Part shown: piece after piece, positions 2,187-43,555 of the stretch
How the letters are laid out: each line of letters begins with the position of its first letter
Numbering within the stretch: the first letter of the stretch is position 1
Origin: Planctomycetaceae bacterium
Lineage (GTDB): Bacteria > Planctomycetota > Planctomycetia > Planctomycetales > Planctomycetaceae
DNA: 43,734 nucleotides
Assembly: GCA_028284885.1 (NCBI GenBank)
Contig: JANQQW010000029.1
Location: forward strand, 1 to 43,734
Reading direction: 5' to 3'
Made by a program: the position numbers and the translations under genes
Notes under the pieces: model-generated
Seen by the model: the letters and a program-made list of their open reading frames with translations, nothing else
What the model was told of the DNA's origin: nothing
Databases searched by the model: none

Positions 2187-2407
2187 GGCAGGTGGTCTCG
2201 GTGGGGGGGAACGTTCACGTGCGAGTGCGGAGGCACGGCTCCAAGTGAGCAGTACGAGCCGAGGAACTCGAACGCCACCCTACCGACTCCTCGGATCGGT
2301 GACGACGATGCCGGCCGCGACGTGCCGAGTCAGTTGCTTCTTGCTCCCCGTCCGAATCCTCCGTAGCCTCGTCGAGTATTCACGTGATCACACACCTTGG
2401 GACGACG

Positions 2408-3454
2408 ATGAACCACGCGCGCTCGCCGCAGCAACGGCACTCGCTCTTCCTGCCGACGCTCTCGACCTGCACGGTCCTCGTTGGTCTCGGACTCGTCCTT
2501 CGCTCCGAGGCCGGTGAACCGCATCCGGGAGCAGAGAAACGCTCGACGTTCGTTGCGTTCGACGACTTCGACGGCAAACCGATGCTCCGGTGGAAGCCGG
2601 TGCGACACGACCCGACGCACGTCTCGTTCACGAAGCACCCCGGCAGCCTCACGATCACCACTCAGCGCGGCACCATTCACCGCGACGAGGGCAACGACGA
2701 TCCGAACGAGACGATCAAGGCGAAGAACATCTTCCTGATCGACAATCCGTTGGCGCCCGATGCGGACTTCGTCGTGACCACCTGCGTGTCGGGATTCACT
2801 CCGCAGACGACCTACCAGCAGGCAGGGCTCGTCCTCTACCACGACGACGACAACTACCTGAAGTGGGGCTACGAATACAACTGGCCGAACCGCGGCGGCC
2901 AGGCCTTCTGCATTCTGTCGGAGACCGACGCGAACTCCCGATTCACCTACGTGGACTCGCCGAGCGGGCTCGACAGGTACTGGGTTCGCCTGACGAAGCG
3001 TGGCAACACGTACGAGTACTCCTTCAGCACGGACGGCAACACCTTCACGGTCCGCGGAGAACGGGAGTGGAGCGACGGTGGGCCGAAGAGGTTGGGCCTC
3101 CTCGCGAAGAACGGCGGAAGCGGCGATCCGAACGCCGGTGAACTCGATGCCCGGTTCGAGTTCTTCGAACTACGCTCCCCGATCCCGGCCGAAGCCCAGC
3201 CGGAACCCGCGCCGCCAGTCCGCCGCGGCTGCATCCCGTGCTGCGGCAAGCGGCGGTCACCCGCGACTTCGGCACCCGCGACCCGCGCCGGCCAGATCCT
3301 CGTGCCACTAGGCGGCAGCCCGCACGTCGTTCGCCCCGTCCTCCGGGAACTCGACGATCTCCGGTTCGGCGGCGGCGGCCCGTTGCATCTCTCGGGATCG
3401 CGAGACGACGCACCGCGTGACGGCCAGCAGGCAGATCATGGTGCACCACGTTAG
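2408..3454 (+). CDS. Secreted concanavalin-like (DUF1349/GH43-C2-like) protein with a 3' end overlapping the opposite gene
   Basis: 348 residues from ATG 2408; an in-frame GTG at 2384 would add 8 residues. An N-terminal Arg/His-rich stretch followed by a hydrophobic segment (LPTLSTCTVLVGLGLVL) looks like a signal peptide or anchor. Residues of about 50-265 (FDDFDGKPMLRWKP... TTYQQAGLVLYHDDDNYLKWGYEY... YWVRLTKRGNTYEYSFSTDGNTF... LGLLAKNGG... FEFFEL) match the jelly-roll fold of DUF1349 and the C-terminal domains of beta-xylosidases, which bind or sense carbohydrate. No catalytic residues are evident. The last 80 or so residues are Pro/Arg-rich, contain GCIPCCGKRR, and are encoded partly antisense to the glycosyltransferase (147-base overlap with the gene ending at 3308). 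The natural stop may have been lost, so the tail is doubtful. Confidence 0.75.
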   Translation: MNHARSPQQRHSLFLPTLSTCTVLVGLGLVLRSEAGEPHPGAEKRSTFVAFDDFDGKPMLRWKPVRHDPTHVSFTKHPGSLTITTQRGTIHRDEGNDDPNETIKAKNIFLIDNPLAPDADFVVTTCVSGFTPQTTYQQAGLVLYHDDDNYLKWGYEYNWPNRGGQAFCILSETDANSRFTYVDSPSGLDRYWVRLTKRGNTYEYSFSTDGNTFTVRGEREWSDGGPKRLGLLAKNGGSGDPNAGELDARFEFFELRSPIPAEAQPEPAPPVRRGCIPCCGKRRSPATSAPATRAGQILVPLGGSPHVVRPVLRELDDLRFGGGGPLHLSGSRDDAPRDGQQADHGAPR

Positions 3455-4663
3455 CGAGCCGTACGCCAGCACGCGGTCGCCGAGTTCCTTCCCGAGCAGG
3501 TCCTTCGACGTGAGCGTGCCCATGCAGAACACGGCGAGGATCGCTCCGCCGACGAGCAGGTCCCGCCGACGGTAGAGGAAGTCGGCCAGGACGAAGGCGA
3601 TCGGCAGGGCGAGTGTGCAGAAGTGGGCCTTGCTGCTCATCGGCGAGAGGAGCAGCATCGCGCACAGCACCGCACCCCCCTGCCCCAGCCGCAGGATGGA
3701 TCGCTCGCGGTCGGAGACGTCCTTCACCCATCCGGGCCAGGTGACCAGCACGATCGTCCCGAGGACGAACAGCTGAACGCCGACGGTGACCAGCTTCAAC
3801 GACCGCCCCGCGAGCGACCAGAGGCTGACGTCGAAGAGGTGCTGCGTCGACACGTCGACCGGCGTGGAAATGCGGTACATGGTCCCGGCGAGACTCTGGT
3901 TGAGCATGTTCCACGAGATCCACGCTCCGCGGGCGTCGGCCGCCTCGCCGACCTCGACCTTCGAGACGAAGGCGTGGTACCAGGTGACGACCCAGGACCG
4001 GCCGTCGTTCGCGGGATACAGCAGGTCCGGCAGCAGCGTGGCCCCGACGGCGACGATGCCGAAGACCCCGACGGCTCGCCACTGTCGGTTCCAGAGGAAC
4101 ACGGGGAGGAAGAGCGCGGGCGTCGCCTTCGTCGCGGCCCCCAGCCCGGTCCAGAACCCGGCCCGCCCGGACCGGTCGCGACTCCAGGCGACGATGCCCA
4201 GCAGCGACAACAGGAACACGATCTGGTCGTGCCCCTGGTACTCCAGTGGGGAGATCAGGAACCGCAGCGTGAGGACCGTCGTCAGCGTGACGCACACCCA
4301 CGAGGGGGGGCCGTCCGTGCGGAACATCGGGTCGAGGGCACGGCACAACAGCCAGCTGACCCCCGCCAGCATGGCGAAGTTCGCAAGGTACCAGACGCCC
4401 CGCCGGGTCGGCTCGTCGAGCCCCGTCATCGGCATGAAGTACATCACGCAGAACGGCGGGTAGGTGAAGGCCCGCACCTGGTCCGGTCGGTAGAACTGCT
4501 CGCCCCGCTCCGCCCGTTCGGACGCGAGCGCATAGACCTCCTGGTCGCCGGGCGTGTCGCTCGCGTACGGGACGACGAACGCCGTCACGACGGCCGCGAT
4601 GGCTCCGACGACGACGAGGCCGACCACCACGGGTCGCGGGAGCCGCGAGGAGATCAACGTCAT
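3308..4663 (-). CDS. Polyprenol-phosphate-mannose-dependent glycosyltransferase-like membrane protein (GT87/DUF2029)
   Basis: 451 residues from ATG 4663. The first residues MTLISSRLPRP lead straight into the first membrane helix. The open frame continues upstream to 4831, but that part is Arg-rich shadow sequence crossing the gmd promoter, so the shorter start is chosen. About ten hydrophobic helices are visible. A periplasmic loop after helix 1 carries acidic residues (ASDTPGDQEVYALASERAERGEQFY) and is followed by FTYPPF, which resembles the GT-C fold of GT87 mannosyltransferases. ATKATPALFLPVFLW is another conserved segment of DUF2029 proteins. It would transfer a sugar from a lipid carrier on the outer face of the inner membrane. 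The divergent neighbour makes GDP-sugar precursors, which fits envelope glycan assembly. The C-terminal tail is Ala/Glu-rich and overlaps the convergent gene. Confidence 0.8.
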   Translation of the reverse strand: MTLISSRLPRPVVVGLVVVGAIAAVVTAFVVPYASDTPGDQEVYALASERAERGEQFYRPDQVRAFTYPPFCVMYFMPMTGLDEPTRRGVWYLANFAMLAGVSWLLCRALDPMFRTDGPPSWVCVTLTTVLTLRFLISPLEYQGHDQIVFLLSLLGIVAWSRDRSGRAGFWTGLGAATKATPALFLPVFLWNRQWRAVGVFGIVAVGATLLPDLLYPANDGRSWVVTWYHAFVSKVEVGEAADARGAWISWNMLNQSLAGTMYRISTPVDVSTQHLFDVSLWSLAGRSLKLVTVGVQLFVLGTIVLVTWPGWVKDVSDRERSILRLGQGGAVLCAMLLLSPMSSKAHFCTLALPIAFVLADFLYRRRDLLVGGAILAVFCMGTLTSKDLLGKELGDRVLAYGSLTWCTMICLLAVTRCVVSRSREMQRAAAAEPEIVEFPEDGANDVRAAA

Positions 4664-4746
4664 GTTGGGTCTCTGTTGCACGAGGGGGCGGGAATCTAGG
4701 TCGGAACGTCGAATCGCGGCAAGGCGAGTCCGCCGTTCGTTCTCCG

Positions 4747-4776
4747 TTGACCCCCTCGCGCCGACAGCGCTAGAAT
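4747..4776 (+). promoter_or_regulatory. Sigma-70-type promoter for the GDP-mannose dehydratase gene
   Basis: TTGACC (4747-4752) and TAGAAT (4771-4776) are each one mismatch from consensus and are 18 bases apart. Transcription would begin near 4783, about 50 bases before ATG 4834. AAGGAG at 4823-4828 is a strong ribosome site five bases before that ATG. Confidence 0.6.
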
Positions 4777-4833
4777 CTCGCCCGAGCGAGAGCGACTCTC
4801 GCCTCGCCAGAGCGGCCAGATGAAGGAGCATCG

Positions 4834-5820
4834 ATGCCGACCCAGCGCGCCCTCGTCACCGGGATCACCGGACAGGACGGTTCCTACCTCGCCGAGTTCC
4901 TCCTCTCGAAGGGGTACGAGGTGCACGGCATCGTCCGCCGGACGAGTTCGCCGAAGACGGAGCGGCTCGAACACCTCGAGGACCGGCTGCACCTCCACTC
5001 CGGCGACCTGACCGACCTCGCCTCCCTGGTCGAGGTCGTCGAACAGGTTCGGCCGGCCGAGGTCTACAACCTGGCCGCCCAGAGTTTCGTCGGTTCCAGC
5101 TGGCGGCAGCCGCTGCTCACGAGCGAGGTCACGGCCCTCGGCACCACGCGGTTGCTCGAGGCGATCCGCCTGGTCGACACCTCGATTCGCTTCTACCAGG
5201 CGAGCTCCAGCGAGATGTTCGGGAAGGTCGTCGAGTCGCCCCAGCGGGAGACGACCCCGTTTCACCCCCGCAGCCCCTACGGCGTGGCCAAGGTCTACGC
5301 CCACTACATGACGGTCAACTACCGCGAGAGCCACGACCTCTACGCCTGCTCGGGGATCCTGTTCAACCACGAGTCGCCGCGGCGGGGCATCGAGTTCGTC
5401 ACCCGGAAGATCACGGACGGCGTTGCCCGCATTCGCTGCGGCCTGCAGAAGGAGCTGGCCCTCGGGAATCTCGCCGCCCGTCGCGACTGGGGCTTCGCCG
5501 GCGACTACGTCCGGGCCATGTGGGCCATGCTGCAGCAGGACGAGCCGGAGGACTTCGTCGTCGGGACCGGCGTCTGCCACAGCGTGGAGGAGTTCGTCAG
5601 CATCGCCTTCGAGCGAGTCGGGCTCGAATGGCGGAACCACGTCGTCGTCGATCCGCGGTTCTTCCGGCCGGCCGAGGTCGACCTGCTGATGGCGGACTCG
5701 TCGCTCGCGAAGGAGCGGCTCGGTTGGGAGCCCGAGGTCGGCTTCCGGGAACTCGTCGAACGGATGGTCGACGCCGATCTCGCCCGGCTACGCGGCGAAC
5801 CGCTCGTCGAAGCCGCCTGA
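4834..5820 (+). CDS. gmd: GDP-mannose 4,6-dehydratase
   Basis: 328 residues, the usual length. This is a short-chain dehydrogenase of the extended type that converts GDP-D-mannose to GDP-4-keto-6-deoxy-D-mannose, the precursor of GDP-fucose, GDP-rhamnose and perosamine. The NADP-binding glycine motif is [12 protein letters not shown] (G10, G13, G16). The catalytic set is visible in SSSEMFG (about 124-130) and Y149-xxx-K153 ([11 protein letters not shown]). NHESPRRG and FVTRKIT are conserved GMD segments that contact GDP-mannose. [10 protein letters not shown] is a further family hallmark. A strong AAGGAG site and a promoter lie just upstream. No 4-keto reductase or epimerase gene follows directly, so the final sugar cannot be named. 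The divergent GT87-like glycosyltransferase suggests use in envelope polysaccharide or glycolipid. Confidence 0.95.
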
Positions 5821-5971
5821 GGGGGTGTTGAGGATCGGGATTCCGCGTTGCATCTCGGAGTGAGCCGCCGTCCTCGCGTCCCGGCTGCGTCGAGGCCGGT
5901 GGCGATCGAGCGGGGCGTTCCCTACGATCTCGGCTCGACGAGGCGGTCCCCGCGTTCCAACCGGCCCGGTC

Positions 5972-6712
5972 ATGCTCAGGCTCGAAGGCGTTTCCAAGTC
6001 CTACGGAGGGACCACGGTCCTCCCCCGGACCGACCTCGAACTGCAGTCCGGCCGCGTCACCGTGCTGATCGGCCAGAGCGGCTGCGGCAAGTCGACCCTG
6101 CTGCGGCTGCTGATGGGACTCGTCGAACCCGACGAGGGGACCGTGTGGTTCGGCGACGAACAGGTGGCCGGCGACCAGGTGCTCGAACTCCGCCGCCGGA
6201 TGGGCTACGTCATCCAGGACGGCGGCCTGTTCCCGCACATGACGGCCCGCGGGAACGTCGAGCTGATGCCCCGGTTCCTGGAGTGGTCGCCCGACCGACT
6301 CCGAGACCGAGTGGCCGAGCTCGCCGCCCTGGTCGACTTGCCGGTCGAGACCCTGGAACGCTACCCGGCCCAGCTCTCCGGCGGGCAGCGACAGCGCGTC
6401 AGCCTGATGCGAGCCCTCGTCCTCGATCCCGAGGTGATGCTGATGGACGAGCCCCTCGGCGCGCTCGACCCGATGATCCGCGCGGAACTGCAGCGAGACC
6501 TCCGCGAGATCTTCCGGCGACTCGAGAAGACGGTCGTGCTCGTCACGCACGACATGAACGAGGCGGCCTTCTTCGGTGACGACGTGATTCTGATGCGCGA
6601 CGGGCACGTCGAACAACGGGGGCCGATCTCCGAGTTGCTCGAACGTCCGGCCACCGACTTCGTTCGCGAGTTCACGACCGCCCAGCGGGCCGTGCTGGGG
6701 GTGACCTCGTGA
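5972..6712 (+). CDS. Osmoprotectant-type ABC transporter ATP-binding protein
   Basis: 246 residues. All ABC ATPase motifs are present: Walker A GQSGCGKST (34-42), Q-loop YVIQDGGLFPHMTARGN, signature LSGGQRQRVSLMRAL, Walker B VMLMDEPLGALDP and the switch His in VLVTHDMNEA. The QDGGLFPHMT form and overall sequence resemble the OpuCA/OsmV/ProV branch that energises glycine betaine, choline or related quaternary-amine import. The C-terminal CBS pair of OpuCA is absent, so the usual ionic-strength sensing through CBS is not expected. The stop overlaps the GTG start of the next gene by four bases (GTGA), which indicates translational coupling with its membrane partner. EgtU-type importers of ergothioneine use a similar ATPase, so the substrate is not fixed. 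Confidence 0.9.
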   Translation: MLRLEGVSKSYGGTTVLPRTDLELQSGRVTVLIGQSGCGKSTLLRLLMGLVEPDEGTVWFGDEQVAGDQVLELRRRMGYVIQDGGLFPHMTARGNVELMPRFLEWSPDRLRDRVAELAALVDLPVETLERYPAQLSGGQRQRVSLMRALVLDPEVMLMDEPLGALDPMIRAELQRDLREIFRRLEKTVVLVTHDMNEAAFFGDDVILMRDGHVEQRGPISELLERPATDFVREFTTAQRAVLGVTS

Positions 6713-8232
6713 GGCGTGTCCACCGTCTTGCTCTGTTGTCGCTCCTGGCGGTGCTGACCGGTTGCGGTCGCTCCGACGTCGTCGTGGGGTCCAAGGACTT
6801 CAACGAGAGCACGATTCTCGGGGAGGTCGTCGCCTACTACGTCGAGTCGAACGGGGCCTCGGTCGAGCACCGACAGCGGCTCGGCGGGAGTCCGGTCGTC
6901 TGGAACGCGTTGCTGTCCGGCGAGATCGACGTCTATCCCGACTACACCGGCACGCTCCGCCAGGAACTCCTCAGCGAACTGAAGCTGAAGGACGACGACG
7001 AGCTTCGCGAGGCTCTCGAGGAACGCGGGCTGCGGATGACGCGGTCGCTCGGGTTCGACAATTCCTACGAGATCGGGATTCCGAACAAGCCGACGGCCGA
7101 GGCCGCCAGACGGTTCGGGACCGACGACCTCTCGGACATCCGGACCATCTCGGACCTCCGGCGTTACCCGAACCTCAAGTGCGGGTTCGCAAACGAGTTC
7201 GTCAAGCGGTCCGACGGGTGGGAGCCCTTGAAACGCGTGTACGCCCTGCCCCAGGACGACGTGCTGCCGCTCGAGCACGACTTCGCGTACATCGGTCTCG
7301 CCAACGGCGACATCGACGTGATGGACGTCTACGCGACGGATGCCAAGGTCAAGGTCTACGACGTTCGGGTCCTCGTCGATGACGAGAACTTCTTCCCGGA
7401 GTACGAGGCCGTCCTCGTGTACCGGGCCGACCTCGAGGAGCGGGCGCCCGAGGTCGTCTCGGCGATTCGACGGCTCGAGGGGAAGATCGACGTCGACACG
7501 ATGACCACGCTGAACGCGCGGACGATGCTGGGGGGGGAGGAGGCCGCCCGCGTGGCCGCCGACTTCCTCAACACGACCTTCGGCTTGGAGATCGTCCCCA
7601 AGGTCCCCAGCATTTTCGAGCGACTTGCCCGGTACACTTGGCAGCACCTTCTGCTCGTCGCAACGTCGCTGTCCGCAGCGATCGTGGTCGCGATCCCGGT
7701 CGGCATTCTCGCCGCCAAGCAGCGGCAGTTCGGTCAGGTCCTGCTCGCCGCCATCGGGCTCTTGCAGACCATCCCGTCGCTGGCGCTGTTCGTCGTGTTG
7801 ATCCCGCTGTGTGGCCTCGGGGCGTTGCCGGCGATCGTGGCGCTGTTCCTCTACAGCCTGCTGCCGATCGTTCGCAACACCTGCACGGGCCTGACCGACA
7901 TCCCGGCCGGGATCCACGAGTCAGCCCAGGCGATCGGGCTCCCGCTTTTCGTCCGACTTTGGAAGATCGAACTTCCGCTGGCAGCTCGCTCGATTCTGGC
8001 CGGCATCAAGACGGCGGCCGTGATCAACGTCGGAACCGCCACGCTCGGTGGCTTCATCGCCGCCGGTGGCTACGGCGTGCCCATCTTCTCCGGTCTGCGG
8101 CTCGGTCAGCCGTACGAGATGCTGGAGGGAGCCGTGCCCGCGGCACTGATGGCACTGGCGGCGCAAGGGGTCTTCGAGTTGGCGGAACTGGTCTGTGTGC
8201 CCCGTGGGCTGCGTTTGAAGCCGGCCGACTGA
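6709..8232 (+). CDS. Fused substrate-binding lipoprotein and permease of an osmoprotectant-type ABC importer
   Basis: 507 residues from GTG 6709. Residues 1-19 form a lipoprotein signal with lipobox LTGC (Cys19). Residues of about 22-290 are an OsmF/OpuCC-type binding domain: VVVGSKDFNESTILGEVVAYYVE, LGGSPVVWNALLSGEIDVYPDYTGTL and FAYIGLANGDIDVMDVYATDAKV are typical. Residues of about 300-500 are the permease with five or six membrane helices, including LLQTIPSLALFV, the coupling segment ESAQAIGLP--LFVRLWKIELPLAARSILAGIKTA and GYGVPIFSGL. In the fusions I know (for example EgtU) the permease comes first and the binding domain last. Here the order is reversed and a lipobox is present, so the protein would be held by both lipid and helices. 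Ligand could be glycine betaine, choline or ergothioneine. A terminator-like hairpin follows at 8302. Confidence 0.9.
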   Translation: MRRVHRLALLSLLAVLTGCGRSDVVVGSKDFNESTILGEVVAYYVESNGASVEHRQRLGGSPVVWNALLSGEIDVYPDYTGTLRQELLSELKLKDDDELREALEERGLRMTRSLGFDNSYEIGIPNKPTAEAARRFGTDDLSDIRTISDLRRYPNLKCGFANEFVKRSDGWEPLKRVYALPQDDVLPLEHDFAYIGLANGDIDVMDVYATDAKVKVYDVRVLVDDENFFPEYEAVLVYRADLEERAPEVVSAIRRLEGKIDVDTMTTLNARTMLGGEEAARVAADFLNTTFGLEIVPKVPSIFERLARYTWQHLLLVATSLSAAIVVAIPVGILAAKQRQFGQVLLAAIGLLQTIPSLALFVVLIPLCGLGALPAIVALFLYSLLPIVRNTCTGLTDIPAGIHESAQAIGLPLFVRLWKIELPLAARSILAGIKTAAVINVGTATLGGFIAAGGYGVPIFSGLRLGQPYEMLEGAVPAALMALAAQGVFELAELVCVPRGLRLKPAD

Positions 8233-31883: not shown

Positions 31884-33782
31884 TCAGGACTCGGAGAACG
31901 CCGCGTAGTCGGCCGGAGTGGCGCCGTCGAGGCAGGCCTCGATGATCTTCCGTCCGCGCGGGTCGAGGTCGTCGTCGACGAACTTCCGAATCTGGTCGTG
32001 GAAGAAGCCGGTCAGAATCTCGGCCCCCTTGTCGTAGCTCTCCTCGCCGACCTCCGGCTGCGTCTCGACCCGGAGGAACCAGTGCCCGATCGTCTGCCCC
32101 TCGACCTGGATCGTCTGGGGCGTCTGGCCGAGGATCGGGCAGCGGGCGTCGATCAGCTTCCCGGGCGGGAACGGGGCCGACCCGCGACGCGAGACGTACT
32201 CCCGCACGATCCACTGCGGCGCGAACCCCGTCGCCCAGGCTCCCACGTGCTGGTTCGGCACGAGCACGAACATCGTGTCCGGCGTCTCCATGATCTGGTG
32301 CAGCAGGATGTTCGCCTGGTCGACGCGACGCCCCGTGGCGAACGGCCAGTACGACCCAACGCCCTCGGAACTCATGCCCTCGGCCTCCACGATCGACGGG
32401 TTGCCGTGCCCACGCGGAGCGACCAGCCGCCACAGCCACGCCAGCGCGGGGGAGAGCACGTGGAACATGCCGATCACACCGTAGGTCGGCCGTTCCCGCG
32501 TGCACGGCGGGCAGCGGACGCCGAAGCTCCGGACGTCGACCGTGACCGACCCGTCCACGATGCCGGGGTAGTTGGCTCGCGGGAAGATCAGGCGCGGGTT
32601 CGGGCACGGCACGCCCGGTTCGTCCTCGATGTGCTCCCAGATGAGGGCCGTCGAGTCGGGCTTGGCGTCGATGTTCAGGAACAGCAGAGGCTGTTCCGGG
32701 TGGATGGTCAGTCCCTCGAGGTGCGGGTCGGTCCCGTAGTGGTCGATGTGGTTCACACGCAGGAACCACGCCTTCTCGGCATCGACGAGACTCAGCTTCT
32801 TCTGCCGCGACTCCTTGTCCTGCAGGTCCGGGTGGCAGAGGGCCATGTCGTCCGTGACGGGGTGCAACTCGCAGCCGTGCGGGACGGTGAGATACCTCGG
32901 TTCGCCGGTGACGACGTTCTCGCCGAGCCGCAGTCGGCCGTCCCGTTCGCGGTGCATCTGCTCGAGCATCTCGCTCTTGCCGCCGCCGGACGCCCCCTCG
33001 TGCATGATCGTGATCTCGTTGTCGTACGGGGTCACGACCTTCACGGTCGAGCAGTGAGCCGTCGTCCAGTCCTGCTTCTCGCCGAAGTTCAACAGCATCC
33101 CGTAGACCCCCTTCTTCGCCGAGGGGCCCGGGTACAGGTTGTAACTGTAGAGCTCGTGGAGTTCGTCGCGGCGGTTGTGGACCACCACCTGCTTGCCGTC
33201 GAAGTGGGTGTGCCGGAACGGCGGTGCGACGTAGATGATCGCCGAGTGGAAGTAGCCCTCGCCGCGCTTCTCCATCTCCTCCAGCGGGACGATGCCCTGC
33301 AGTGTCGCCAGGCCGAAGGCGAAGAAGGCCGCGTTCGCCGGGCAGATCGCGACGGCCGGCAGCCCCTTGTCCGGCATGCCCGCGTCGAAGAAGAAGCACG
33401 CCAGGTCCTGCGTCTTCAGCCAGTCGAACGTCTGCTGCCGCAGCGACTCGAAGTCCTCGCCGAACCGTTCCACGTAGGTCTTCTTGTCGGTCGCCCGTTC
33501 GTCCGCGATGACCATGCAGTTCGGGTCGCGGCGGCGCATGTACGGCTCGACGTAGTTCGCGCTGATGCCGTTCTTCACCCGGCACACCCGAGCCTCCGGG
33601 CGGAACTCGCCGTCCACGTCGTAGCCGACGGTGAAGAAGCCCTTGTCGTCCGTTTGGTCCGGTGGGACGGCGGCCTCGGCGATCTCGGCGGCCGAGCCGA
33701 AGAACGTGACCGACTTCGCCTCGGACAGCACGACCTCGGCGGAACGAGAGAGCGACAGCTGGGGAAATCGTTCGGTGAACAC
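31884..33782 (-). CDS. DUF4914-like P-loop protein related to PEP carboxykinase
   Basis: 632 residues from GTG 33782. A P-loop HEGASGGGKSEM (G263-S270) is the only clear functional motif. Around it, AFFAFGLATLQGIVPLEEM, HSAIIYVAPPFRHTHFDGKQ, IIGHWFLRVETQPEV and the overall plan correspond to what I recall of DUF4914, a family in the PEP-carboxykinase clan that is found mainly in Bacteroidota and planctomycetes and whose reaction is unknown. It therefore probably binds ATP or GTP and phosphorylates or decarboxylates a carboxylate, but that is inference. No visible ribosome site lies before the GTG, so the start is uncertain. A plausible promoter lies at 33863-33891. Confidence 0.72.
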   Translation of the reverse strand: MFTERFPQLSLSRSAEVVLSEAKSVTFFGSAAEIAEAAVPPDQTDDKGFFTVGYDVDGEFRPEARVCRVKNGISANYVEPYMRRRDPNCMVIADERATDKKTYVERFGEDFESLRQQTFDWLKTQDLACFFFDAGMPDKGLPAVAICPANAAFFAFGLATLQGIVPLEEMEKRGEGYFHSAIIYVAPPFRHTHFDGKQVVVHNRRDELHELYSYNLYPGPSAKKGVYGMLLNFGEKQDWTTAHCSTVKVVTPYDNEITIMHEGASGGGKSEMLEQMHRERDGRLRLGENVVTGEPRYLTVPHGCELHPVTDDMALCHPDLQDKESRQKKLSLVDAEKAWFLRVNHIDHYGTDPHLEGLTIHPEQPLLFLNIDAKPDSTALIWEHIEDEPGVPCPNPRLIFPRANYPGIVDGSVTVDVRSFGVRCPPCTRERPTYGVIGMFHVLSPALAWLWRLVAPRGHGNPSIVEAEGMSSEGVGSYWPFATGRRVDQANILLHQIMETPDTMFVLVPNQHVGAWATGFAPQWIVREYVSRRGSAPFPPGKLIDARCPILGQTPQTIQVEGQTIGHWFLRVETQPEVGEESYDKGAEILTGFFHDQIRKFVDDDLDPRGRKIIEACLDGATPADYAAFSES

Positions 33783-33936: not shown

Positions 33937-34560
33937 TCACCAGTCGTCGTCCGGATCTCCGTCGTCGAAACCCCGCTCCTCGTCGGCCTCCCCGCCCTCG
34001 GCCGCGTACATCACGTCGGTTCGCAGGACGTACTTCCGGCCCTCCAGCACCGGCTCCCCCTTGTGGTGCACGGCATGCTCGAAGAACAGGGCCGTCCCTC
34101 GTTCCGGCGTCACGCTGAACTCGTCGAACGAGTCCTCCGTGTAGCTGTCCTCGAACGACGTCTCGCCCCCCTCGAAGCCGTCGTTCAGGTAGACCATGAA
34201 CGTGAGGAAGCTCGCCTCGCCGTTGTCCCGCTCGCTCGCGGCCTTTCGGCCGCTTCTGGCCGCTGGCCACACCTGTCTGCGGTTCGGGCTTTACCCGGAA
34301 CAGCAGTCGAAATCAAGAAGTCCTAGTGCCAGTTGAAGGTCTGGCCGACGTCGTACCGGTAGAAGCGGACCAACTCGTTGAGCCTCACGGCCGCCCGGCT
34401 TTCGACCTCCGTCGGCACGAACTCCTCGATCCGCTCCCACAACCGTGCGACGAACTCCTCGCTGGAGAACATCACCCGCTGATTGTTCCGCACGTCCTCC
34501 CGCCGGACGACCCCGTCCGGCGTACTGCCCAACGCATCCTCGGCTTCCTCGCGGGTTGAC
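33937..34560 (-). pseudogene. Interrupted 2OG-Fe(II) oxygenase (prolyl-4-hydroxylase-like)
   Basis: Two frames together read as one 2OG-Fe(II) dioxygenase. The upstream part (34323-34560) reads DVRNNQRVMFSSEEFVARLWERIEEFVPTEV...VRLNELVRFYRYDVGQTFNWH and stops with TAG (34323-34325). The downstream part (33937-34272) reads ERDNGEASFLTFMVYLNDGFEGGETSFEDSY... FSVTPERGTALFFEHAVHHKGEPVLEGRKYVLRTDVMYAAEG. Iron binding needs H-x-D...H: the first His is the residue before TAG, the next codon GAC would be the Asp, and the distal His is in EHAVHH. The R/K pair GRKYVLR would bind 2-oxoglutarate. Ninety-two bases separate CAC (34326-34328) from the ERDNG codons, where about 20 are expected, and the frame shifts. 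The usual N-terminal 40-60 residues are also missing beyond 34560, where the low-GC islet begins. It is probably non-functional unless recoding occurs. Confidence 0.75.
34234..34325 (-). repeat. Insert with two hairpins inside the oxygenase gene
   Basis: The stretch between the two halves of the oxygenase carries two stem-loops on the minus strand: GTTCCGGGTAAAGCCCGAAC (34301-34282; a seven-pair stem with one bulged C) and GCGGCC-GAAA-GGCCGC (34253-34238; six perfect G-C pairs closed by a GNRA tetraloop). About 70 bases exceed the expected spacing. No known element was recognised. Confidence 0.55.
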
Positions 34561-34585
34561 GATCGCCGTACGGTAATACTATATG
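34556..34585 (+). promoter_or_regulatory. Possible promoter of the 88-residue gene
   Basis: TTGACG (34556-34561) is followed after 18 bases by TATATG (34580-34585), or after 15 bases by TACTAT (34577-34582). Start would be near 34592, about 48 bases before ATG 34640. Confidence 0.35.
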
Positions 34586-34639
34586 TACACTTCACGGCCG
34601 GGATCCATTCGCAAGTACAGAAGCGTCTTGGAGGCAACG

Positions 34640-34906
34640 ATGCAGTTGGACGGGGCGATAATCGATGAGCAGGGAGTGACGTTCGCGATCGTTGTCGTGA
34701 AGACCGGTGTGCTTCAAACGAGGTCACGGAGCGATCAAGTGCGCGAATCCCTTGCGTTGATCCAAGACTTTTCTGAGTTGCCAATCGTCTTGGCGGCACA
34801 GGACGCAAAAGGGAGATTTACCTATCAAGGACGTCACGACATCGTCGATTTCCTGGCGTCAATCGACGCGTCGCGGATCCCGTGGAAGACGTACTCAGTG
34901 GGATGA
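34640..34906 (+). CDS. Small unrecognised protein of a low-GC islet
   Basis: 88 residues from ATG 34640, preceded by GGAGG (34630-34634) at good spacing; the frame is open from 34583 but the ribosome site decides for 34640. The protein alternates hydrophobic and polar segments (AIIDEQGVTFAIVVVKTGVL, LPIVLAAQDAKGRFTYQGRHDIVDFLASID) and looks like a compact alpha/beta domain without membrane helix, signal peptide or Cys. I do not recognise the family. GC of the gene is visibly lower than its surroundings (32/60 and 31/60 in two lines). It is oriented against the flanking genes, with its own promoter candidate, and converges with the minus-strand gene ending at 34917 (10-base gap). Confidence 0.75.
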   Translation: MQLDGAIIDEQGVTFAIVVVKTGVLQTRSRSDQVRESLALIQDFSELPIVLAAQDAKGRFTYQGRHDIVDFLASIDASRIPWKTYSVG

Positions 34907-37241: not shown

Positions 37242-37811
37242 TTACTCGTTGACACGCTCGACGTAGGATCCGGTTCGCGCATCGACCTTGATCTTGTCGC
37301 CCTGCTTCACGAAGGCCGGGACCTGCACCTCGACGCCGGCCGAGGTCTCGGCGGCCTTGGTGACGTTGCCCGCGGTGTCGCCGCGAGCGGCCGGTTCGGT
37401 GTAGGTGATCTCCACGACCACGTGCGACGGCGGCGTGAAGTCGATGAGCTGGCCGTTCCAGAACAGCATCTCGACGGTCGCCCCGTCGAGCAGGAAGTCG
37501 CCGCGGGTGCCCACGGTCTCGTTCGGCAGCATGTACTGCTCGTAGTCCGTGTTGCTCATGAAGTGGAAGCCCTCGGCGTCGCGGTACATGTACTGTCCGT
37601 CGCCGCGGTGCACGTCGGCCGCCTCGAGCGACTCGCCGCTCTTGTAGTTGCGGTCGAGTTTCGTCCCCTTCAGCAGGTTCACGAGGCGAAGCGTGTAGTT
37701 CGCCTGGCCCTTGCCCGGCTTGCGGAACTCGCAGTCGAGAATCTCGTACGGCTCGCCGTCGAGAATGACCTTGAGGCCCTTGCGGAAGTCGCTGGTGCTC
37801 ACCGTGGCCAT
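37242..37811 (-). CDS. efp: Elongation factor P
   Basis: 189 residues from ATG 37811, the usual length, with three beta-barrel domains. It rescues ribosomes stalled at proline runs. MATVSTSDFRKGLKVILDGEPYEILDCEFRKPGKGQANYTLRLVNL shows the domain I loop with Lys34 (KPGKGQ), the site that receives beta-lysine or another modification in species with a Lys-type EF-P. NETVGTRGDFLLDGATVEMLFWNGQLIDFTPPSHVVVEI and VTKAAETSAGVEVQVPAFVKQGDKIKVDARTGSYVERV are conserved in domains II and III. The modification enzyme EpmA/EpmB is not in the window. The upstream extension to 38036 crosses the divergent promoter region and is rejected. Confidence 0.96.
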   Translation of the reverse strand: MATVSTSDFRKGLKVILDGEPYEILDCEFRKPGKGQANYTLRLVNLLKGTKLDRNYKSGESLEAADVHRGDGQYMYRDAEGFHFMSNTDYEQYMLPNETVGTRGDFLLDGATVEMLFWNGQLIDFTPPSHVVVEITYTEPAARGDTAGNVTKAAETSAGVEVQVPAFVKQGDKIKVDARTGSYVERVNE

Positions 37812-38010
37812 GTCGCGTCTCTGTCTCGTCTCGCTGGTCGATCGGTCGGCGGTCGGGTCCACACCGTCCGCGCAGGTCGTTGGCGGGGCGGAGGATAGCA
37901 GACGGCCGGAAGCGTGGAAATGCCGGGCGACGCGGCCGGCCGAGGCGAGGGGCGACGCGGAACTCGAACCGGACGTGTATGCTGTGGGCCTTCCGAACGA
38001 GGAGGTGGAC

Positions 38011-40773
38011 ATGCACGGTTCCGCGCTGGCGATCACACTGGTGGCCTCGGCCTGTCTCGGCGAGGTGGGGGATCCGACGATCCGGACCGACCACCCGCAC
38101 TACCCCGGTGAAGGGGCGTTCCAGTCGGTCGAGGACTGCGTTCGTTTCGCCACGTCGGGGGCGAAGACGGATCAGGACCGGGCGATCGCTCTCTTCAAGT
38201 GGTTGCTGACGCACCAGTACCACTTGGCTTCGCCGCAGGAGTTCTGCGTGCCGGGTCGGCAGCCGAACACCGCCGTGCCGGGCGACTACGAGATGATCCC
38301 GTTCGACGCGAACCGGGCACGGTTCTCCTACGGGTACGGGCTGTGCGGCACGGTGCACGCGTGGAACGAACCGTACTGGGCGGCGGCCGGCATGCGGGCT
38401 CGGCGGCGGGCGTTCCCGGGCCACGTGAACAGCGAGGTCTTCTACGGCGGGAGTTGGCACGCCTTCGACACCGACATGGCCGGCCTGCTGTTCCGCAAGG
38501 ACGGAGTCGTCGCCGGGTACGAGGACGTCGTCCGCGACCCCGGGCTCGTCGACTCGGTCAAACCGCCGTTGCCGCACTACCCGTTCGCCTGGCCGAGCGA
38601 CTTCGACACCATGAAGCGTGGCTGGCGGGAGGTGGCCGAGACCACGAAGTCGGGCAAGACGTGGTACAGCCTCTACAACAGCGGCTACGCCGGACACCCC
38701 GGCATCGTCCACCTGCGGACCGGCGAGTCGTTCACGCGGTGGTTCGACCGGGACCACTTCGGCGGCCCGACGAAGCGACGCTTCTGGCACAACGCCGAGG
38801 GCGGACCGCAACGGAACTGGACGTTCCTCAACAACGGCACCCCGTTCCACGACGGGGCGAAGTCGAACTCTCGGGGCAACGCGAGCTACGGAAACGGGGA
38901 GTTCGTCTACGAACCGCCGCTGGCCGACGGGCGGTTCCGTGAGGGGGCCGTGACGTCGTCGAACCTCGCCCACCGGGCCGAGTCGCCTCGCCTTCACAGT
39001 GCGGACGGCGAGCCGGCGACCGTGACGTTCCGACACTTCTCGCCCTACGTCGTCTGCGGCGACCCGCTCGACGACGCGAATCCGATGACCGGGCCGGCGA
39101 CCGACGGGCTCGTCGTCGAGGGCCGAGTCGTCGGACGGGTCACGTTCTCGGTCTCGGCGAACGAGGGGCTCACTTGGCAGGAGGTCGCGACCGATCTCGC
39201 GGCCGACGGGCGGTTCCGCGTCGATCTGACCGACCGCGTGAAGGGGCGATATGGTTGGCACCTGCGATGCTCGTTCGAGGGCGACAGCGGCATCGACGCA
39301 CTCCGGTTCACGACGGTCACCCAGGTTGCCCAGGGCATTCACCCGCGGCTGACGCCGGACGGCTGTGAAGTCGTCTACCGGGCCGGTTCGCGGGGCGTGA
39401 CGGCCGTGCTGCCGGACTTCGGGCTGCCCGAGACCTCGACGAGTTTGTTCGAGGAGAGGTCGATGCGGTCGGCGAACGTCGAGTACGAGCCGCGTGGGCC
39501 CCGGTCGCGACTCGCGTATCGCACGACCGACAGTCGTCCGGGGCAGGTCGTGTTCCGGGTCGAGTCGCCGGGGGAACTGCTCGAGGTGAGGGCCGCCGTT
39601 CGGTACCAACTCCGCGTCCCGCCACCCGCACGGACCGACTACCGGATGGAGGTCTCGACCGACGAGGGACGGACGTGGCGGGAGTTCGCGAAAGCCGACG
39701 TTCCCGCGGACAACGAGTTCTCCAGCGGCTGGTTGAGCGGCCGGACGGACGTCTCGGCCGCGCGGGTGAAGCGGGCCCTCGTGCGGGTGACGTTCCACGC
39801 CGACGGGCACCGGACGGGGTTGATCGCCGCACGGTTCTACGGCGTTCACCGCACGAGCCGACCGTCCGGCACTGTCGTCGAGTTCGGCTGGCGTGAGAAG
39901 GGCCGGCTTCGCACCCACGCCGTGGAACTCGACGAGGGGGCGGGCGAGAAGACGTTCACCGTGCCGACCGGGCCGTCGGTCGTCGACGACTACGTCCGCG
40001 TCTCGGCGCCGTCGAACAGCGAGAGCGAGATCGGGCGACGGGAACCGGCGTGGGTGGAGCCGACGCGGAAGGTCCACGCCGGCTTCGAAGGACGCCCCGG
40101 CTACGTCGCCCAGTTCGGCGACTCGATCACCCACAGCATGGCCTTCTGGACGCCCGTGGACTGGGATGAGCCGCAGAAGTACCTCGCCGCGGAGGACGGG
40201 CTGCCCGCGAAACCGGCGAACGGCCGCTGGCGGGACGTCGTTCGCGGCACGCGGGACAAGGGGCCCAAGCACGGCAACTTCTCCGGTTGGACCGTGAAGA
40301 ACCTCCTCGCTTCGGTCGACGCGGTCCTCGCTCGCGAGAAGCCGGAGATCGCGATCGTGATGGTCGGCACCAACGACGTTGCCCGCGGCACGGTTCCCGA
40401 GAGCTTCGCCGAAGACCTCGAAGCCGTCGTCTCGAGGTGCCTGTCGGCGCACTGCATCCCGGTCCTCAACACGATTCCACCTCGGCGGGGACGGGAGAAG
40501 GTCGTGGAGGAGTTGAACGGGGTCGTTCGCGAACTGGCAAAACGCAAGCGACTGCCGCTCGTCGACTATCACGCCGAGATCGTCCGCCGCCGCCCGAACG
40601 GCACGTGGGCCGGCACGCTGATCTCAGACGACGGCGTGCACCCGACCGCAGGCAAGACGAACGTCTACACCGACGAGAACCTCGCCGTGAGCGGCTACGC
40701 CCTGCGGAACTGGCTGAACTTCCTCGCCGTCCGCGAAGTCTGGTTCCGCGTGCTGGAACGCCCGGCCGACTGA
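38011..40773 (+). CDS. Secreted transglutaminase-like / SGNH-hydrolase fusion
   Basis: 920 residues from ATG 38011, preceded by GGAGGTGG. A short signal peptide (MHGSALAITLVASACLG) is likely. Residues of about 40-165 form a transglutaminase-like domain with C112 (GLCGTVH), H138 (GHVNSEVFY) and D153 (WHAFDTD), spaced as the Cys-His-Asp triad of this superfamily. Residues of about 330-690 are beta-rich, with several repeated Ig- or jelly-roll-like segments (EVSTDEGRTWREFA, FSVSANEGLTWQEVA) that read like carbohydrate-recognition modules. Residues of about 695-905 are an SGNH hydrolase: GDSIT (703-707, Ser705), VMVGTNDVA (block III Asn) and DGVHP (Asp874, His877). A planctomycete enzyme joining a cysteine-type and a serine-type esterase/hydrolase domain is unusual. 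It is convergent with the heparinase-like gene (16-base gap). Confidence 0.85.
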   Translation: MHGSALAITLVASACLGEVGDPTIRTDHPHYPGEGAFQSVEDCVRFATSGAKTDQDRAIALFKWLLTHQYHLASPQEFCVPGRQPNTAVPGDYEMIPFDANRARFSYGYGLCGTVHAWNEPYWAAAGMRARRRAFPGHVNSEVFYGGSWHAFDTDMAGLLFRKDGVVAGYEDVVRDPGLVDSVKPPLPHYPFAWPSDFDTMKRGWREVAETTKSGKTWYSLYNSGYAGHPGIVHLRTGESFTRWFDRDHFGGPTKRRFWHNAEGGPQRNWTFLNNGTPFHDGAKSNSRGNASYGNGEFVYEPPLADGRFREGAVTSSNLAHRAESPRLHSADGEPATVTFRHFSPYVVCGDPLDDANPMTGPATDGLVVEGRVVGRVTFSVSANEGLTWQEVATDLAADGRFRVDLTDRVKGRYGWHLRCSFEGDSGIDALRFTTVTQVAQGIHPRLTPDGCEVVYRAGSRGVTAVLPDFGLPETSTSLFEERSMRSANVEYEPRGPRSRLAYRTTDSRPGQVVFRVESPGELLEVRAAVRYQLRVPPPARTDYRMEVSTDEGRTWREFAKADVPADNEFSSGWLSGRTDVSAARVKRALVRVTFHADGHRTGLIAARFYGVHRTSRPSGTVVEFGWREKGRLRTHAVELDEGAGEKTFTVPTGPSVVDDYVRVSAPSNSESEIGRREPAWVEPTRKVHAGFEGRPGYVAQFGDSITHSMAFWTPVDWDEPQKYLAAEDGLPAKPANGRWRDVVRGTRDKGPKHGNFSGWTVKNLLASVDAVLAREKPEIAIVMVGTNDVARGTVPESFAEDLEAVVSRCLSAHCIPVLNTIPPRRGREKVVEELNGVVRELAKRKRLPLVDYHAEIVRRRPNGTWAGTLISDDGVHPTAGKTNVYTDENLAVSGYALRNWLNFLAVREVWFRVLERPAD

Positions 40774-40789: not shown

Positions 40790-43555
40790 TCAGCGAGTCT
40801 TCGTCGGCCGGACCGCGAGTTCGCCCGACGGTCGGCTCGTCTCGTCGAACGAACGGACGACGACGTCGGGTTCGGCGGAGTCGGCGTCCGGTGTGCGTCG
40901 TCGGAGTTCGTCGAAGCCACCGTCGGGTCGTCGGCAGCGCACGACGAGCGTGCCGTCGTCGGGCCACTCTGAGGTCACGTTCTCGACGCACCACTTCTGC
41001 TCGGGACCGGCGGGCACGAGCACCCAGGCCCGCGTCGTCGGGCCCTTCGCCTTCCAGCGGAACACGGGCGTCCACATCGGGGCGCGGGCCTTGCCGACGA
41101 CGTGCCAACCCTGCACGTGCGGCTCCGTCTGCCCGTGGACGAGTTCGACCTCGAGATCCGCGGTGACGGCCGGCACGATTCGCAAGGCCGCCGCGGCGTC
41201 CCAGCCGCGGACGATCTTCCGTTCCGCGTCGACCACCTCGGCGTGGTTGCGGCGGACGTGGAACAGCGCCTCGTACGCGTGTTCTTCGTCGTCCGCCGGT
41301 TCGACCGTGTCGACGACGATCCAGTAGGCGGTCTCGGGTGGGTTCGTTCCCTTCACGAAGACGACCTGCCGGGTCTGCCTCCCTTGGACGCTGTTGCCGG
41401 GGGCGTACCAGCCGTGCGTGTGGAACCCCTCGGCGTAACCGAAGTGCTCGTTGTCCTCGAAGCGACGCGTCTCGGGTTCGTGGCCGTAGATCTCGAAGCG
41501 GTGCGGAATGCGGGCCTGCACGCCGCCGTCGACGAGGAGCGTGTTGTAGCCGCGGGTGGAACCGGTGTAGGCGGTGAACGGCCCGCCGGCGTAGGAGCCG
41601 CGACCACCGCTGGCGAGCAACGGGTGCCCGCCGTGGTCGACGTAGATGCCGAGCTTGTCCTCCTTGCCGTGGCTCGCCCCGACCGGACCGGCGTCCATGA
41701 ACAGGTAACGGTGCTGCGGTCCCCACCCGGTCCGCAGCACGAAGTGGCCGGCGTTCGGGAAGTAGGCGGACCGCTCGCGGGGCGGCTTGCCCTTTTCTCC
41801 GCGGGTGCCCATCCAGCGGAAGTCGTCCCGGTGAGGGAAGAGTTCGTGAGCGCGACGCATGTGGTCGTCGATCATCCCCCAGCCGCCGTCGTTGAGATCG
41901 ATCTGCCCCCGGTTCGGACGGGACGTCAGGATCGGATGCCGGTACGCGCGTTCGAGCGTGTCGAGGAAGCGTCGCGGCACGGTCTGGCCGGTTCGTCGGT
42001 AGAGCGCGACGAGATTCTCCAGCGACTTGATCGAGGCCCAGTTGTAGCCGGTGCTCAGGCTGGCGTGGCTGCCGTCCGGGTAGAACTGCACGTCGAGTAC
42101 GACGTCCAGCCGGCGGGCAGCCTCCTCACGCCAGCGGGCCGACTCCCGAAACTCCGGCAGCATCAGCCCGTTCTGCAGGAGGGCGACTGCGCCGTGGCTG
42201 CCGCCGTCGTCGTGGGCGGCGAAACTGCTGGGGTTCATCAGCAGCCGAGACTGCCGTACAAAGCCGAGGAGCATGTGCAGCAGCGCCCCTTCGTCGACGT
42301 CCGCGGAGTGTCGGAAGGACTCGAACGCGGGCCACCACGTCAGCTCACAGCGGCGGCCGATGTTGCTGGTGTTCATGTAGCCCCGGACGAAGGTCGTGCC
42401 GTCCATCCAGTTCAGCCCGCCGATGTCCGGGTTCCGCGGATGCAGGAACGGCTCGCGAGCGACCCAGTCGGTGACCTCGCGCGCGAACCGCTTCGCGTAG
42501 GCGGCGTTCCCCGTCTCCTCGTGGGCCTTCGCGAGCGAGCACCAGTGGAAGTGCCGCGTGAGGTGCCCGTGGCAGTAGGCCCAGCGGATGACGCCCTTCT
42601 CGTCCACGAACCGCTGCGTGTTGCCCGCTCCGTCGACGTACGTGGCCGAGAGCTTGGCCGACGGGCCGAGCGTGCCGTACCGGTCCTCGAGCGCGGCGTC
42701 GGCGACCTCGAGGTAGTTCGGGGAGTGAATCTGCTCGGTGAGCGGTGGGCCAACCGGGGTCTTCCGTTCGCGAAAGTGCTCGACGAGTAGTCGCGCGGCC
42801 GTCCGTCGATCGTCACGCTGCAGGGTCGCTCGGACGGAGGCGAGTTCGGGCCGGGTCAGGTCGAGCGCATCCAGCACGACGTCCGCGACCGTCGGCGTTG
42901 CCACGACCTCCGCCGGTTCGATTCGGCGGCAGGCCGTCAGCTGGTAGACCGCCCGATTCGACCGGGGTTCCGTGCCGCCCGTGACGGCGTAGACACCGAC
43001 CCGGCCGAGCGTGATCCGCCGCTTCGACGCGAACTCGAACACGGGCCGGTCGAGGTGCTCGAAGAAGAACCGCAGCAGCGTGCCCGAGTCTCTCGGCGTC
43101 CCGACGACGCGAAGCCGGTAGGGGCCGTCGTGCGGCGTGAACTCCCACGGCTGCTGGTACTGGCGGTCGCCGGTCCAACCCGGTGGCCGCGGTCGTGGCT
43201 CTCTTCGCGGCTCGTTCACGCCGTGGATCCAGACGTCCCAGAACCCGGCCGTGGCTCCCTCCCGGAGCTCGAACGAGACCGAACGGCTGTCGGAACCGGG
43301 CAGCGGGTCGTCGCCGTCGCCGAGTCCCAGCGTGAAGCCGGCGACCGCCTGATGGTCGCCATCCGGCTTCGCCGTCGGGTCGATCTCGAACTCGACGAGA
43401 AACGAGGTCGCGTCGGTCTCGCTCGTGCTGACCACCGTGGACGCCGTCCGCGTCGGGGTGTCGGCCGTGGTCGTCAGTTCGAAGCGTTCCGGACCGGCCC
43501 ACGCCGGTGCGGGCAGCAGGAACAGGACGATCGCAGCGGGGAGTCTCGGTCGCAT
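40790..43555 (-). CDS. Heparinase II/III-type polysaccharide lyase, secreted
   Basis: 921 residues from ATG 43555, preceded by GGAGGT. Signal peptide 1-20 (AAIVLFLLPAPAWA). Residues of about 25-200 are beta-sandwich. Residues of about 300-600 are the alpha-toroid of the heparinase/alginate-lyase fold, with NTSNIGRRCELTWWP, DDGGSHGAVA and SLSTGYNWASIKSLENLV as likely active-site segments (Asn, His, Tyr). The beta-sandwich follows, with GPVGASHGKEDKLGIYVDHGG, which matches the heparinase H-G-x-x-D-x-L motif, and YAGGPFTAYTGSTRGYNTLLVDG. It should cleave a uronic-acid-containing polysaccharide by beta-elimination; heparin, alginate, ulvan and similar substrates cannot be told apart. It is long for the family. 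It lies tail-to-tail with the transglutaminase/SGNH fusion. Confidence 0.87.
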   Translation of the reverse strand: MRPRLPAAIVLFLLPAPAWAGPERFELTTTADTPTRTASTVVSTSETDATSFLVEFEIDPTAKPDGDHQAVAGFTLGLGDGDDPLPGSDSRSVSFELREGATAGFWDVWIHGVNEPRREPRPRPPGWTGDRQYQQPWEFTPHDGPYRLRVVGTPRDSGTLLRFFFEHLDRPVFEFASKRRITLGRVGVYAVTGGTEPRSNRAVYQLTACRRIEPAEVVATPTVADVVLDALDLTRPELASVRATLQRDDRRTAARLLVEHFRERKTPVGPPLTEQIHSPNYLEVADAALEDRYGTLGPSAKLSATYVDGAGNTQRFVDEKGVIRWAYCHGHLTRHFHWCSLAKAHEETGNAAYAKRFAREVTDWVAREPFLHPRNPDIGGLNWMDGTTFVRGYMNTSNIGRRCELTWWPAFESFRHSADVDEGALLHMLLGFVRQSRLLMNPSSFAAHDDGGSHGAVALLQNGLMLPEFRESARWREEAARRLDVVLDVQFYPDGSHASLSTGYNWASIKSLENLVALYRRTGQTVPRRFLDTLERAYRHPILTSRPNRGQIDLNDGGWGMIDDHMRRAHELFPHRDDFRWMGTRGEKGKPPRERSAYFPNAGHFVLRTGWGPQHRYLFMDAGPVGASHGKEDKLGIYVDHGGHPLLASGGRGSYAGGPFTAYTGSTRGYNTLLVDGGVQARIPHRFEIYGHEPETRRFEDNEHFGYAEGFHTHGWYAPGNSVQGRQTRQVVFVKGTNPPETAYWIVVDTVEPADDEEHAYEALFHVRRNHAEVVDAERKIVRGWDAAAALRIVPAVTADLEVELVHGQTEPHVQGWHVVGKARAPMWTPVFRWKAKGPTTRAWVLVPAGPEQKWCVENVTSEWPDDGTLVVRCRRPDGGFDELRRRTPDADSAEPDVVVRSFDETSRPSGELAVRPTKTR

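Follow-up and report, generated by a model that had tools for sequence, protein, structure and literature searches.

What kind of enzyme results when a cysteine-based and a serine-based catalytic domain are carried by one exported polypeptide? The question is raised by a gene in a 43,734-nucleotide stretch of DNA from a bacterium of the Planctomycetaceae (assembly GCA_028284885.1, contig JANQQW010000029.1, positions 1 to 43,734 of the forward strand), the whole of which we call the window. The gene is a single uninterrupted open reading frame (ORF) on the plus strand, from 38011 to 40773, and its translation of 920 residues contains no internal stop; these coordinates had been given correctly in the original prediction. 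That prediction described a single exported polypeptide carrying two full catalytic sets, separated by beta-rich modules. C112, H138, D153, S705, D874 and H877 are all present at the residues named, and the arrangement is borne out by the sequence, by Pfam, by hhalign and by the structural models. One ORF carries two catalytic domains with intact residues, a transglutaminase (Tg)-like domain at the N terminus and an SGNH/GDSL hydrolase at the C terminus. Judged by the sequences of its relatives, the protein is a gene fusion of two complete secreted proteins that live apart elsewhere.

The boundary between the two halves is visible in the relatives of each. Stand-alone orthologs of the Tg-like half end at the equivalent of residue ~666 in all 12 close relatives whose C termini were compared, and the mature part of a free SGNH protein (locus L010) begins, right after its own leader, where the SGNH part of the window protein begins. 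Hydrophobic leaders open the orthologs of the Tg-like half too, ahead of a conserved VGDP motif. Between the fused halves neither a leader nor a spacer is left, and a ten-residue linker joins the Tg-family part to the SGNH domain. Moreover, the two partners lie adjacent in genome G051, where a Tg ortholog (58% identity) is followed in the same direction, with 15 bp from stop to ATG, by a gene for a beta-helix and an SGNH domain (L044:9735-11699), the SGNH part of which is 57% identical to that of the window protein. The contig of the free SGNH gene (L010) is labelled Candidatus Nealsonbacteria, has 61% GC and is probably misbinned; the gene itself groups among sequences of the planctomycete class.

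The distribution of the two families was surveyed in overlapping samples of genomes. The Tg-family profile matched 48 of 397 genomes of the class at E <= 1e-60, an SGNH domain occurring in the same frame only in the window among the matches listed, and the family was found in 50 of 392 genomes of the phylum at E <= 1e-10. A second fusion of the two domains was not found among the matches listed from 248 and 397 class genomes, 392 phylum genomes and the 297 class genomes searched with the SGNH profile. Likewise, there was no match in the plasmid search, or in viral contigs searched with the SGNH query. Six long Tg-family frames elsewhere have other partners, or none known to Pfam, and a 966-residue frame of G065 carries the Tg family at residues 333 to 962 with no SGNH match. 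The overlap between SGNH-positive and Tg-positive genomes (11 of the 25 are also among the 48) is not used as evidence, because the samples differ and genome size was uncontrolled. One genome is thin evidence for a fusion fixed in a lineage. Neither the fusion nor the membership of the N-terminal half in a widespread family, one for which Pfam has no domain model, could be seen by the earlier reading, which was made from the sequence alone.

Four partly independent lines of evidence identify the first domain as transglutaminase-like, namely the conservation of the triad, the hhalign comparison, a double match in genome G264 and the modelled fold. Of the 61 full-length rows of the family, the window among them, all have Cys112 and Glu142, 60 have His138, 60 have Asp153 and 58 have Trp149. 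The N-terminal alignment of the family (55 rows, the window being present twice) was compared by hhalign with 18 PF01841 domains from genomes of the same phylum, giving 93.3% (E 2.7e-07) and aligning all three catalytic positions; the control, the same alignment against the SGNH alignment, gave 0.2%. Furthermore, one divergent frame in G264 matches both the Tg-family profile (E 7.7e-12) and PF01841 above the Pfam cut-off (27.2 bits). Finally, the AlphaFold model of residues 19 to 216, based on 10 alignment rows, is of moderate confidence (mean predicted local distance difference test [pLDDT] 58.9, predicted template modelling score 0.62). With this model, Foldseek ranked Tg/papain-like proteins first (3isr, probability 1.00 and E 0.011; 4xz7; 3kd4), and VIA returned mostly transglutaminases, arylamine N-acetyltransferases, PNGases, Rad4/XPC and similar proteins, from Z 7.1 downward. 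The papain-like fold on which the original prediction depended was found in residues 40 to 165 of this moderate-confidence model; sequence searches gave no convincing PDB relative for the domain. An apparently inactive copy of the family occurs in a 1506-residue frame (L087:5775-10292, minus strand), the row of the 55-row alignment in which the catalytic His is replaced by D and the Asp by N.

In the C-terminal domain, Pfam matched residues 702 to 880 with PF13472 (Lipase_GDSL_2, E 8.8e-19) and PF00657 (E 1.2e-07). The domain shares with the Lipase_GDSL_2 hydrolases block I (GDSIT, 703-707), block II (SGW, 758-760), block III (GTND, 786-789) and block V (DGVH, 874-877, within DGVHP), together with the Ser-Asp-His triad, and differs from them in being fused to a Tg-like protein. 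The Ser, Gly, Asn and His of these blocks are invariant in 5/5 aligned rows, and the Asp is replaced by Asn in the relative of locus L049. A model of AxeA1 matched the domain weakly (19.8 bits against a cut-off of 700). In a tree of 25 SGNH domains, one five-row clade (95/98) comprises the window, G168, G051, the free L010 protein and a 310-residue frame of G618; since beta-helix, Tg-like and free forms share this clade, the fusion partner varies within it. The closest SGNH domain, that of G168 (L048:5349-7454), is 67% identical and is fused to a right-handed beta-helix, as is that of G051; the relatives in G103 and G023 also carry a beta-helix. The proteins of G168 and G051 (L044) have SGNH domains 57 to 67% identical to that of the window, in the same clade, but their partner is a beta-helix and not a Tg-like protein. 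The beta-helix partner in L019 and L048 matches Chondroitinas_B weakly (E 7e-04); a search of PDB chains with this half of L048 gave no match at E <= 0.01. The SGNH family also occurs near the N terminus of frames of 1137 to 1324 residues (L185:3795-7577, L186:3909-7883, L187:3550-7410 and L190:5316-8727); in L185, which was scanned whole, about 900 residues beyond the SGNH domain are without a Pfam match at E <= 0.01.

The AlphaFold model of residues 1 to 672 has a mean pLDDT of 57.7, yet reaches 80 to 93 in many beta blocks. In its Tg-like core, Cys112 stands at the start of a helix (111 to 125), and His138 and Asp153 follow with the strands at 138 to 145 and 148 to 152. The model also contains two beta-sandwiches (~290-447 and ~460-620), each with an Asp-box or Asp-box-like motif. 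For the first, the closest fold (VIA-align, residues 241 to 440) is the C-terminal domain of mouse PNGase (Z 10.4, root mean square deviation 3.3 Å, 128 aligned), with reelin also matched, and a profile search found chiefly Asp-box proteins. The second has a fold resembling reelin and carbohydrate-binding modules (CBM27, CBM61, CBM22, CBM32), TmCBM27 and TmCBM61 both giving Z 9.8 in VIA. Among PDB chains, its profile matched reelin (E 8.1e-08) and gave a weak match to a CBM32 domain (E 0.011), the Asp-box itself being the source of much of this signal. The Foldseek top 50 for the middle-region model consists of reelin, malectin-like, CBM and toxin jelly rolls.

The protein can be compared with several known systems. 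The planctomycete stand-alone family (~670 residues; L012, L002, L003) shares 49 to 61% identity over residues 1 to 666 in the close subfamily, the same triad and the same two sandwiches, but lacks the SGNH domain and stops at the boundary described above. Tg-type PNGases have zinc-binding CxxC pairs in the Tg domain. The cytoplasmic PNGases (mouse 2f4o/2g9f, yeast 3esw) resemble the window protein in the order of a Tg-like core followed by a beta-sandwich; in contrast, the window protein has no CxxC in residues 1 to 165 and no Pfam PAW match, is exported, and possesses an extra jelly roll and the SGNH domain. Membership in the PNGases, considered for the VIA match of residues 241 to 440, is not claimed, because the CxxC pairs are missing, Pfam finds no PAW domain and the Foldseek top 50 is non-PNGase, being made up of the jelly rolls listed above. 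The PF04721 profile matched none of 149 genomes, but none of the controls either, hence that scan is uninformative. For Ruminococcus flavefaciens FD-1, a published account describes Tg-like modules in dockerin proteins, grouped with peptidases and with values of about 3 to 4 in the expression fold-change column of its table (PMC2930009); these are likewise exported Tg-like modules in a fibre-degrading system, with a dockerin in place of the SGNH domain. A second paper on this species reports a cellulosome-related protein with NlpC/P60 modules, whose fold is papain-like (PMC3573020). Searches on the pairing of Tg-like and SGNH/GDSL domains found no protein of that build in the literature collection covered, in agreement with the original prediction, to whose author no characterised enzyme of this kind was known. 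It follows that the window protein combines domains of known kinds in a new way, with a chemistry that we infer.

The genomic surroundings of the relatives were also inspected. In genome G043 (L049), a group of overlapping open frames on one strand encodes GH10 (767-2149), GH127 (2103-4199), an SGNH protein (4172-5056) and GH43 (5016-6716); it reads as a hemicellulose cluster, in which the SGNH protein is likely a hemicellulose deacetylase. Among Tg-family proteins, L092:64-4266 (minus strand, 1401 residues) combines a beta-helix, the Tg-family stretch, a chondroitinase-B/disaggregatase-like stretch and a dockerin type I, and other partners are PKD with a disaggregatase-related repeat (L088), a Rha78A-type Ig domain (L093) and HEAT repeats (L091). 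In the window, a heparinase-type gene ends 16 bp from the stop of the fusion gene (Hepar_II_III_N, E 8.1e-38; HepC models; 5jmd, E 2e-21). The hemicellulase cluster, the fusion partners and this neighbour point to extracellular glycan breakdown. The features of the locus are collected in Table 1.

Table 1. Positions of the fusion gene, its parts and its immediate neighbours in the window
Feature	Position	Strand	Basis
Elongation factor P, divergent neighbour (context only)	37242..37811	-	Pfam
Shine-Dalgarno-like GAGGAGG (37999-38005) and spacer, upstream of the ATG at 38011	37999..38010	+	Sequence read
Putative N-terminal signal sequence, residues 1-18	38011..38064	+	Sequence read, ortholog comparison
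Transglutaminase-like (papain-fold) catalytic core, residues 40-165	38128..38505	+	Alignment, hhalign, AlphaFold model, Foldseek, VIA
Triad of the transglutaminase-like core: Cys112, His138, Asp153	38344-38346, 38422-38424, 38467-38469	+	
First beta-sandwich, residues ~290-447, Asp-box-like SANEGLTW	38878..39351	+	Model, VIA-align, profile
Second beta-sandwich (jelly roll), residues ~460-620, Asp-box STDEGRTW	39388..39870	+	Model, Foldseek, VIA, profile
Final beta unit of the Tg-family part, residues 621-666	39871..40008	+	Comparison of ortholog C termini
Junction linker, residues 667-676, without signal-peptide remnant	40009..40038	+	Sequence, ortholog comparison
SGNH/GDSL hydrolase domain, residues 677-916	40039..40758	+	Pfam, phmmer, alignment
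Triad of the SGNH domain: Ser705, Asp874, His877	40123-40125, 40630-40632, 40639-40641	+	
Heparinase II/III-type polysaccharide lyase (HepC-like), convergent neighbour (context; functional link putative)	40790..43555	-	Pfam, HepC models, PDB

Other genes in the window and in the inspected loci were noted in passing. On the minus strand of the window, a 2OG-Fe(II) oxygenase gene (33937-34808) is split into two frames, with 2OG-FeII_Oxy_3 on the downstream piece and the upstream piece stopping right after a metal-ligand-like histidine (QTFNWH), which may reflect a pseudogene or an assembly error; a DUF4914 protein (31884-33782, minus strand) gives a full-length match (E 1.1e-302). Near a Tg-family gene, L043:9075-10862 (minus strand) encodes a Caspase-domain (Peptidase_C14) protein with an FGE-sulfatase-type domain.

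Our preferred reading, held tentatively and with the chances almost in balance, is that the protein is an exported bifunctional enzyme of glycan degradation, in which a cysteine amidase or peptidase is combined with a carbohydrate O-deacylase and CBM-like jelly rolls hold one polymer. The fusion protein would be exported and its CBM/reelin-like sandwiches would dock on a glycan. Ser705-Asp874-His877 would then take O-acyl groups, most likely acetyl, off that glycan, and Cys112-His138-Asp153 would act as a thiol hydrolase attacking an amide bond where the decorated extracellular polymer is peptide or glycopeptide. Deacylation would make the glycan accessible to glycosidases and lyases, among them the heparinase-type lyase encoded next to the fusion gene. 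We infer that each domain is catalytically active, that the Tg-like one hydrolyses rather than cross-links, that the SGNH domain acts on an acetylated polysaccharide, and that the two share one polymer. The original prediction had proposed that the enzyme may deacylate and cross-link or cleave a glycopeptide or polysaccharide. The deacylating and cleaving part agrees with the context, namely the hemicellulase cluster, the beta-helix and dockerin/PKD relatives, the CBM-like folds and the heparinase-type neighbour; cross-linking is unsupported, as Pfam finds no Transglut_N or Transglut_C and proteases, arylamine N-acetyltransferases, PNGase and transglutaminases all occur among the closest folds, and it is the least likely reaction for the Tg-like half. 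As a more specific and doubtful version, the N-terminal family might consist of exported glycoamidases of bacteria that follow the PNGase arrangement, a Tg core and after it a PAW-like sandwich binding the glycan. Such enzymes would free glycans from extracellular glycopeptides or proteoglycans, and the fusion would add the O-deacetylase required where those glycans are acetylated.

Several observations weigh against an enzyme of glycan degradation. PF01841 (Transglut_core) has no Pfam match at E <= 1 in the window protein, nor in any of 19 Tg-family members. Confidence in the two AlphaFold models is modest (pLDDT 57.7 and 58.9), and for the Tg domain VIA reaches no more than Z 7.1, under 8, so that the modelled fold by itself would not be enough for the Tg-like assignment. 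The nearest phmmer match of the SGNH domain is a TesA-like acyl-CoA thioesterase I (E 1.1e-08), a match that does not argue for a sugar substrate and says little about what the domain acts on. The only SGNH relative in a clear hemicellulase cluster, that of G043, is 43% identical and falls outside the clade of the window. Of the scanned neighbours of Tg-family genes, most have no connection with glycans (topoisomerase, DsbD, kinase, PQQ propellers, DUF1501/PSD1). Moreover, a homologue of the heparinase was not found in 26 other loci inspected, of which 19 contain a listed Tg-family gene, many of the loci being short and two (L002 and L043) being the same contig; thus, the heparinase-type neighbour may be incidental, and a conserved pair of heparinase and Tg-family genes was rejected as a general rule.

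Among the alternatives, the Tg-like half could be a peptidase for matrix or cell-wall protein (proteoglycan, glycoprotein, S-layer), with the SGNH domain deacylating that material or peptidoglycan and polysaccharide breakdown not being its task. We consider this rather unlikely, albeit worth serious attention: the best Foldseek matches include the putative cysteine proteases 3isr and 3kd4, the pseudomurein endoisopeptidase PeiP appears in the VIA list (Z 5.3), and the R. flavefaciens modules are classed with peptidases in PMC2930009. However, the SGNH relatives accompany hemicellulases and beta-helices rather than peptidoglycan enzymes, and Pfam finds no peptidoglycan-binding module in the window protein or the scanned family members. 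It is less plausible, and in our opinion improbable, that the catalytic domains were fused merely for co-export and dosage and have different substrates. Both partners occur alone in many genomes, and the mixed SGNH clade indicates a module that swaps partners easily, but the partners seen with either of them, beta-helices with the SGNH domain and dockerin/PKD modules with the Tg family, all appear to be directed at glycans.

Animal TGM-type transglutaminases have Transglut_N and Transglut_C beta domains around the core. These two domains are without a Pfam match at E <= 1 in the window protein and the 19 family members, which makes very improbable a true cross-linking transglutaminase, or an acyl transferase, anchoring or modifying matrix proteins while the SGNH domain trims acyl groups. 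VIA does list factor XIII, TG2 and TG3 (Z 5.8-6.6), level with its other matches; since arylamine N-acetyltransferases, PNGase and proteases score similarly, the reaction is not decided by the fold. As for the fusion itself, it occurs in a single genome, in a 399-contig assembly, with no second genome of the genus among the matches listed, and could in principle be an artefact of assembly or annotation or a read-through without function of its own. We hold this to be extremely unlikely, as the coding signal is unbroken (third-position GC 0.84-0.96 along the entire frame, junction included), the signal peptide or intergenic stretch that loss of a stop codon alone would leave is missing, and the partner genes are neighbours in G051.

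With the glycan-degrading enzyme kept as the preferred reading, the finding bears chiefly on the Tg family, which is widespread in the phylum, has an almost invariant triad and is not covered by any Pfam domain model. Its fusion here with an SGNH domain that has a relative in a hemicellulase cluster provides a clue to the function of this uncharacterised family, tying it to the breakdown of acylated glycans, and offers one construct in which both activities could be tested.

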